Origin: Clostridiaceae bacterium
GTDB lineage: Bacteria; Bacillota; Clostridia; DSM-8532
Length of the DNA: 64,000 nt
Direction: 5' to 3'
NCBI GenBank assembly: GCA_012728015.1
Contig: JAAYFY010000093.1
Span: 1-64,000, forward strand
Shown: positions 12,788 through 63,055 of the stretch, in pieces
Layout of the letters: every line of letters begins with the position of its first letter
Position numbering within the stretch: the stretch's first letter is position 1
Translations under genes and position numbers: made by a program
The notes under the pieces: generated by a model
The model's database searches: none
What the model was told of the DNA's origin: nothing
Seen by the model: only the letters and a program-made list of their open reading frames with translations

Positions 12788-12841
12788 ATGCATTACTTTA
12801 TGAAACCCTGCCCATCATGCGTGAACCAAGGGGCAGGTTAG
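12788..12841 (+). CDS. Possible 17-residue Cys-containing micropeptide
   Basis: ATG at 12788 opens a 17-codon frame reading MHYFMKPCPSCVNQGAG and stops at TAG 12839-12841. GAGGGTG lies about 9 bases upstream, and a hairpin with a T-rich tail begins at the stop codon. Those two signals are the only support. The CPSC motif could bind metal or form a disulphide or thioether; this is speculation. A structured RNA with a chance frame is an equal alternative, because CTGCCC...GGGCAG inside the frame can pair. Confidence 0.3.
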   Translation: MHYFMKPCPSCVNQGAG

Positions 12842-12885
12842 GCGGATCGGTTAATAAGTGAGAAACCGGTTCGCCTATTTATTTT
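12840..12885 (+). terminator. Probable intrinsic terminator
   Basis: AGGCG...CGGTT pairs with AACCG...CGCCT around a loop of about 11 bases, followed by ATTTATTTT. It would end a short plus-strand transcript that contains the 17-codon frame. No other plus-strand gene lies within 1.1 kb upstream. Confidence 0.6.
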
Positions 12886-12891
12886 CCCTTC

Positions 12892-12956
12892 TGTCATTGC
12901 GGGAAGGCCCCACTTTGTTTGTCATTGCGAGAAGGCGAAGCCGACGAAGCAATCTC
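12892..12956. repeat. Palindromic REP/MITE-like repeat, left part
   Basis: TGTCATTGCGGG is followed by a second TGTCATTGCGAG, AGGCGAAGCCGACGAAG and GCAATCTC. The order matches the left half of the simple copy at 28623-28687. The matching right half appears about 290 bases later at 13242, so the folded element at 13008-13209 sits inside the repeat. Confidence 0.75.
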
Positions 12957-13007: not shown

Positions 13008-13209
13008 CGTGCTGTTTCTGTCTCGAATGACTCCGCAGGAGCAGATGAAGTTGTATGCGAAATGCGAAGAATCGAGCGGGGGAAAACAACCGGATGTTGT
13101 TTTTAGCCGGCAGTCGCACGGATGCGACGTTGCCGGCGGCCCTGCGAGATCAAGCATGAGCATGCACAACTTCCTGCGACGAGGACTGAAGGAGAGACAG
13201 AACAGCACG
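13008..13209 (+). repeat. Structured repeat element, copy B (possible noncoding RNA)
   Basis: The ends pair over 15-16 bp: CGTGCTGTTTCTGTCTC at 13008-13024 with GAGACAGAACAGCACG at 13194-13209, one bulged T. Inside, CTCC pairs with GGAG, GCAGG with CCTGC, and GAAGTTGT with ACAACTTC, so the whole 202 nt can form one long rod. Its head carries two hairpins: AAAACAACCGGATGTTGTTTT, and GCCGGC-A-GTCGC...GCGAC-GTT-GCCGGC. Residues 13083-13212 are nearly identical to 1-130. No known RNA family is recognised, and no protein-coding signal is present. Strand is arbitrary because the element is palindromic. Confidence 0.7.
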
Positions 13210-13241: not shown

Positions 13242-13273
13242 AGAGATTGCCGCGCTTTGCCCGCAATGATACA
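13242..13273. repeat. Palindromic REP/MITE-like repeat, right part
   Basis: AGAGATTGCCGCGC...GCCCGCAATGAT(A)CA matches the right half of the repeat family with a few changes. A further decayed fragment CCCGGCCGCTGCGCTCACAATGACA lies at about 13336-13357, just past the end of yfbR. Confidence 0.65.
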
Positions 13274-62857: not shown

Positions 62858-62878
62858 AAAGGCAAAAATATCCCGTTC

Positions 62879-63020
62879 TCCCTTCAAAGCTTCCGAGGTT
62901 AGCTGACGGATTCGGGCCGAAAGGGCTTAGCCCTACCGGAGTATTTCCGGATTCACCCCACAGATTGGTTCCCCCGTATCCTGTTCCAAGATTATAGAAA
63001 ACAGGAATTCAGCACTTCAT
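62879..63020 (-). promoter_or_regulatory. c-di-AMP riboswitch (ydaO/yuaA class)
   Basis: Read on the minus strand the element has ACGGGGGAACC, then TGGGGTGAATCC, a variable hairpin, TAGGGCTAAGCCC, and the hallmark CCCGAATCCGTCAGCTAACCTCGG...GAAGGGAG. These blocks and their order match the ydaO/yuaA consensus as remembered. The 5' P1 strand is placed near 63011-63020. This RNA binds cyclic di-AMP and usually turns downstream genes off when bound. The 5' boundary is approximate. Confidence 0.93.
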
Positions 63021-63055
63021 AGGCTATACAGTTATATGTTGTATCGCCGTAGCTT

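Follow-up and report, generated by a model that had tools for sequence, protein, structure and literature searches.

What is the 202-nt repeat that lies at positions 13008–13209 of this clostridial contig, and does it act as an RNA, as a mobile DNA element or as both? The window, meaning the whole 64,000-nt stretch of DNA that was analyzed, contains the following parts of the repeat:

1–127, + strand: 3′ part of another copy (core positions 76–202), cut by the contig edge; from sequence identity to the copy on contig C41
13008–13209, + strand: complete core, 202 nt; from the full copies in the genome and the fold
13008–13024, + strand: left arm of the terminal stem; from the fold
13031–13186, + strand: TwoAYGGAY-like RNA module; from the match to covariance model R2
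13083–13103, + strand: apical hairpin 1, loop CGGAT, with GGA at 13092–13094; from covariation and GGA conservation
13106–13137, + strand: apical hairpin 2, loop CGGA inside ACGGAT, with GGA at 13120–13122; from covariation and GGA conservation
13194–13209, + strand: right arm of the terminal stem; from the fold

The core folds into a rod with interruptions that is closed by a terminal stem of 16–17 nt and carries two hairpins at its apex, with their loop GGAs (13092 and 13120) spaced 28 nt apart. Its minimum free energy is −99.1 kcal/mol, compared with a mean of −62.5 kcal/mol for dinucleotide shuffles (n = 200; z −8.1), and none of the 200 shuffles folded as well; the long rod with a terminal inverted repeat and two apical hairpins that the initial annotation described is thus real. 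Neither a promoter nor an intrinsic terminator of its own was detected above chance adjoining the window copy.

That annotation gave the repeat as present twice, which is a large undercount, as the genome (2.19 Mb, 97 contigs) contains eight complete copies that are 93–100% identical, in addition to fragments and to two forms of 83 and 72 nt that have lost internal sequence and retain the terminal stem. The four differences that it listed for the second copy, which it placed at 1–130, are confirmed, although that copy is the 3′ part of one cut by the contig edge: the stretch at 1–127 carries exactly four differences (positions 41, 45, 83, and 117), and the change at position 45 converts a stem U-A into U-G and so keeps the pair. 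This stretch is a 100% match to positions 76–202 of the complete copy that ends contig C41, and because the two are identical over these core positions, they are probably a single copy divided between two contigs. Searching beyond the genome revealed further copies in the congener G003 (88–96% identity) and in the sister genus g2 (G005, G022, and G023; 74–78% identity, with up to 20 matches in G023). A covariance model (R1) built on 29 cores and searched against 341 genomes of the class, with up to eight candidates scored per genome so that each copy number is an “at least” figure, matched the window's family only and added two genomes, G300 and G334, of which the latter is the more divergent. 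Behind some G334 copies, such as that at L115, lies what looks like a degenerate second copy. Scanning 84,980 species genomes for a motif returned 43 stretches, every one of which is in a metagenome-assembled genome titled Clostridiaceae or Bacillota; the plasmid and phage collections yielded no match to the repeat, and no viral contig carried the conserved motif.

The surroundings of the window copy comprise several repeats and a shared landmark:

12840–12875, + strand: terminator-like hairpin ahead of the insertion region; kept in four sister species in the orthologous-site alignment
12920–12956, + strand: dispersed REP-like repeat GTCATTGCGAG...GCAATCTC adjoining the element; a separate repeat, present in sister species without the core
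12949–12956, + strand: left arm of the outer inverted repeat, GCAATCTC, which is the end of the REP-like repeat; from flank alignment, and paired with 13243–13250 in the extended fold
13243–13250, + strand: right arm of the outer inverted repeat, GAGATTGC; from flank alignment and the extended fold
187, 12893, 12921, 13347, 28601, 28624, 28676, 39498, 39872, 53232, 63824, and 63845: matches in the window to the first 11 bases of the REP-like repeat

The orthologous site lacks the element in G003, G001, G002, and G004, where the shared terminator-like hairpin is followed by a different palindrome (G003), a short REP (G002), a REP and other sequence (G001) or unrelated sequence (G004). Homology between copies of the element continues for approximately 45 nt past each end of the core, up to the outer inverted repeat GCAATCTC...GAGATTGC. 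The first 11 bases of the REP-like repeat, with at most one mismatch, match the window at 12 places compared with 0.9 expected, and sister species carry dozens of copies of this repeat. A clean target-site duplication was not found at the window copy, where REPs crowd the site, and none was seen around other copies of the window's repeat family. The outer repeats are of the GGCAATCTC type beside REPs in the g1 lineage, GGGCTGTCTCAAAA in G023 and GTGCAAGTGGCACAGTCTTT in G334; they vary with lineage, so that the core is conserved while its outside changes. In two G003 loci (L044:444–626 and L046:446–613), the 30-nt ends of the element bracket an unrelated purine/pyrimidine palindrome of the GGAGGTTAGAGG / CCTCTAACCTCC type, and a palindrome of this type also sits at the G003 site that is orthologous to the window copy. 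Judged from such arrangements, the shared ends look able to hold different cores. A search of five genomes for an autonomous transposon bounded by the g2 outer repeat GGGCTGTCTCAAAA gave no correctly oriented pair (at most one mismatch) at a transposon-length distance. The initial proposal of a mobile non-coding RNA, or of the non-autonomous core of an element, is borne out by the dispersal of the copies, their presence or absence at orthologous sites, the internal-deletion derivatives and a shared covarying structure; both the mobility and the structure of the element are well supported.

The identity of the RNA emerges from covariance models. At gathering thresholds, Rfam reported nothing at the repeat; in a permissive search, however, the window copy matched TwoAYGGAY (RF01731) along the full length of the model (1–168) with 32.4 bits, below the threshold of 43 (E 0.073 in the 12.7 kb searched), and few if any of the other copies tested with this model were reported. 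Since 2010, TwoAYGGAY has stood as an RNA without a known function. A model built solely from 10 RF01731 copies of other Bacillota families (R2) recovered all but two (L020 and L027) of the 32 loci of the window's repeat family; the 30 matches are full-length, with E 1.8e-14 to 2.5e-8, and score within the range seen for other RF01731 copies. When applied to the 64-kb window, R2 found the known copies at 4.4e-14 and 2.4e-4, followed by a chance hit at 0.11. In the reverse direction, R1, whose match on the window copy spans 13031–13183, detected the RF01731 loci L206 (4.6e-7), L198 (6e-6), and L201 (0.0012). The two-hairpin rod of TwoAYGGAY is evident from both the full-length alignment and the R2 matches, and with respect to the eponymous AYGGAY loops, loop 2 (ACGGAT) fits and loop 1 (CCGGAT) is one letter off. 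Because independent covariance models match each other's loci reciprocally, we read the repeat as belonging to the TwoAYGGAY superfamily, in a divergent branch that lies outside RF01731 as Rfam draws it. The statement that no family is recognized therefore holds for the Rfam cut-off but not for the fold, which has a known, if distant, relative, and these results show that at least one branch of the class escapes the RF01731 model. Elsewhere in the window, a c-di-AMP riboswitch (RF00379, 96.5 bits) is located at 62873–63024 on the − strand.

The sister-genus copies are about 75% identical. In A3, an alignment of 53 copies (51 of the rows distinct) that was fitted to the model and is hence biased towards it, both partners have changed in 34 of 51 base pairs, and 95.8% of cells are paired compared with 30–48% when the partners are slid; none of 500 shuffles reached the observed values. 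A free RNAalifold fold of 30 copies likewise gave 17 pairs with two-sided changes. Covariation extends to the helix of hairpin 1 (8/9 pairs) and to the main helix of hairpin 2 (5/9 pairs). The two refuting outcomes named in the initial annotation thus give a mixed picture: a distant known RNA relative exists, but changes between copies do not break the stems at random. Among the non-Watson-Crick cells, G-U (141, of which one pair supplies 48) far outnumbers A-C (17), and this excess argues for the folding of one strand, although single-stranded DNA would also give some. Template-switch repair of palindromes can yield compensatory changes without selection at the RNA level, and such correction could have produced some of the covariation; it leaves the conservation of the internal loops and hairpin loops unexplained.

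These hairpin loops point to the regulator CsrA. GGA is kept in loop 1 of 48, in loop 2 of 51 and in both loops of 46 of the 53 aligned copies. Of the 12 columns that are invariant across 19 divergent RF01731 copies, 10 fall in the two loops. A sequence alignment of very divergent RF01731 copies (A4) was too poor to serve for a covariance model. Loop 1 of the window copy (CCGGAT) and the loops of the sister genus g2 deviate from the full CsrA consensus. The source genome encodes CsrA (G000:C48:5907–6059, E 1.3e-24), and a CsrA gene is present in 48/50 genomes with RF01731 compared with 237/348 without it (Fisher p 7e-6); at the level of genera, down to which phylogeny was corrected for, the corresponding figures are 38/40 and 158/227 (p 4e-4). 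For the window's own family, CsrA occurs in 6/7 genomes with the element and 6/11 without it. Overall, a CsrA match is absent from three RNA-bearing genomes (G300, with one copy, G529, and G581). Rfam clan CL00106 holds both RF01731 and CsrB, and TwoAYGGAY has been proposed to bind CsrA on the basis of motif matches (PMC4333381). Many CsrA-bearing bacteria are without antagonist sRNAs, and in B. subtilis CsrA is antagonized by FliW (PMC4894983). CsrA titration is our best working hypothesis for the function of the repeat.

Signs of mobility are not confined to the window's branch. Of the 398 genomes sampled from the phylum, 50 contain RF01731 (33 above the threshold), often in at least six copies each, and in G134, G468, G525, and G637 the copies lie within longer outer inverted repeats. 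The outer arms in G134 (L221–L226; roughly 35–40 bp) differ among copies and are largely complementary within each, a pattern that suggests arm correction or the acquisition of target palindromes. In G468, four of the five RF01731 copies (L198, L251, L253, and L254) have an entire terminator hairpin repeated directly on either side; the duplicated hairpin differs from site to site, with alignment scores of 15–26.5 compared with a maximum of 10.5 in 72 cross-pairs, and in the congener G499 the orthologous site is without the element and shows just one terminator hairpin. This arrangement looks like insertion at a terminator accompanied by a duplication of ~20–30 bp, which is long for a DDE transposase. 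At another locus (L202:913–1070 and 1501–1658), two RF01731-like RNAs in opposite orientation lie within 1 kb of each other. In the literature searched, which was mainly open-access, no earlier account of mobility in TwoAYGGAY was found. These observations show that TwoAYGGAY belongs to a large class of multi-copy, site-polymorphic RNAs in Bacillota and that it tracks the CsrA gene.

The repeat is therefore a real structured-RNA element, both conserved and mobile, and adds a new mobile branch to an RNA family that is known but unexplained. On balance, we think it somewhat more probable than not that it is a non-autonomous mobile element that carries a CsrA-binding RNA of the TwoAYGGAY superfamily. 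In such a model, the core would encode a structured RNA of this superfamily, copies would spread among intergenic sites at gene 3′ ends by means of an enzyme presumably supplied in trans, and the + strand of the copies would be transcribed; the resulting rod would present two GGA hairpin loops 28 nt apart, a geometry that appears suited to the CsrA dimer. The most likely effect would be that transcripts from the copies bind and titrate CsrA. Counting against this model, no promoter above chance adjoins the window copy, some loops deviate from the CsrA consensus, and approximately one-third of the copies (10/29 and 8/25) are antisense to both neighboring genes and hence not expressible by read-through; these copies would need a promoter for expression, and none has been found so far.

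The strongest competing explanation is that the repeat is an ordinary MITE-like palindrome, whose fold acts at the level of DNA or transposition (as a cruciform or in single-strand recognition) and whose GGA loops are a transposase site. The repeat is indeed multi-copy, dispersed, bounded by inverted repeats and gene-less, as are MITEs; the inverted repeats occur at several levels, internal-deletion derivatives with the terminal stem alone exist (including the G003 copies), placement is intergenic and at gene 3′ ends, and terminator hairpins are duplicated around most of the G468 copies. However, the outer inverted repeats, which are the part that a transposase usually binds, are variable among lineages, whereas conservation extends over the core and its internal loops. 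The preponderance of G-U over A-C fits one folded strand better, even allowing for the share that single-stranded DNA would contribute, and the association with CsrA is left unaccounted for. Hence, a purely DNA-level role seems unlikely to us, while still carrying appreciable weight.

It is also conceivable that the copies act in cis, as 3′-UTR terminators, mRNA stabilizers or attenuators, rather than as a CsrA titrator in trans. When neighboring genes were assigned by simple ORF calls for copies with both neighbors known, the promoter-side intergenic regions, between divergent genes, were almost free of copies (2/29 and 1/25), and the remainder of the 29 were at gene 3′ ends; insertion at terminators and the Rfam typing of RF01731 as Cis-reg also agree with such a role. 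On the other hand, copies lie in either orientation with respect to the upstream gene, and a plain stem would suffice for a terminator, yet the two GGA loops are retained. Moreover, in the table that accompanied its discovery, TwoAYGGAY is listed as probably not a cis-regulatory RNA (PMC2864571). We regard a cis role as improbable.

Mobilization by the Y1_Tnp protein (TnpA-REP) of a REP/RAYT system, in which the core would be an enlarged palindrome between two REPs, is very improbable: the window copy does have flanking REP-like repeats and the genome does have one Y1_Tnp gene, but a Y1_Tnp match is missing from 13 of the 50 RF01731 genomes, including the multi-copy G134 and G109, the association is weak (37/50 with RF01731 compared with 189/348 without, p 0.009), and REPs are present in sister species without the core, just as g2 has the core without these REPs. 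The single RAYT-like gene itself (G000:C82:194721–195053, locus L040) has GGGGACGGTTC repeats just upstream and is not adjoined by the window's repeat. It was rejected as the mobilizing gene on account of this missing flanking repeat and of the absence of the Y1_Tnp family from several multi-copy genomes.

Returning to a mobile element that carries a CsrA-binding RNA, it is tempting to extend the model to the whole family, such that TwoAYGGAY-type RNAs would constitute a transposing class of CsrA titrators in Bacillota, inserting at terminators, at least sometimes with their duplication, with copy number setting the dose of the sponge. We advance this extension tentatively, as a possibility that we place somewhat below even. 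The present data make the proposal that TwoAYGGAY binds CsrA directly testable and add mobility to it. If it is true, a mobile element spreads copies of a sponge for a global regulator, and Bacillota has an RNA antagonist of CsrA in addition to the protein FliW; we know of no CsrB-like antagonist RNA in this phylum.

Several known systems resemble the repeat in part. It shares with TwoAYGGAY (RF01731) the interrupted outer rod, the two adjacent apical hairpins with YGGAN loops and a host in the Clostridia, and it differs in its score below 43 bits, its CCGGAT in loop 1 and its lineage-specific outer repeats. Like CsrB/RsmB and other CsrA-titrating sRNAs (RF00018, clan CL00106), it has GGA in hairpin loops and resides in a CsrA-encoding genome. 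By contrast, CsrB/RsmB is one long RNA with many GGA motifs, whereas the repeat comprises many dispersed units, each a putative sRNA with two GGA hairpins. The QMITE1 and QMITE2 elements of Coxiella burnetii, compared here by description, are MITE families that gave rise to transcribed sRNAs; they belong to another family in a gammaproteobacterial host, and no CsrA link is reported for them (PMC5896051). Finally, the ERIC/IRU, RUP, and Correia repeats (PMC2229807) are similarly short, gene-less, dispersed, intergenic and palindromic, and have deletion derivatives. Unlike these, the repeat in the window keeps its internal RNA fold across genera and families while its outer repeats change.
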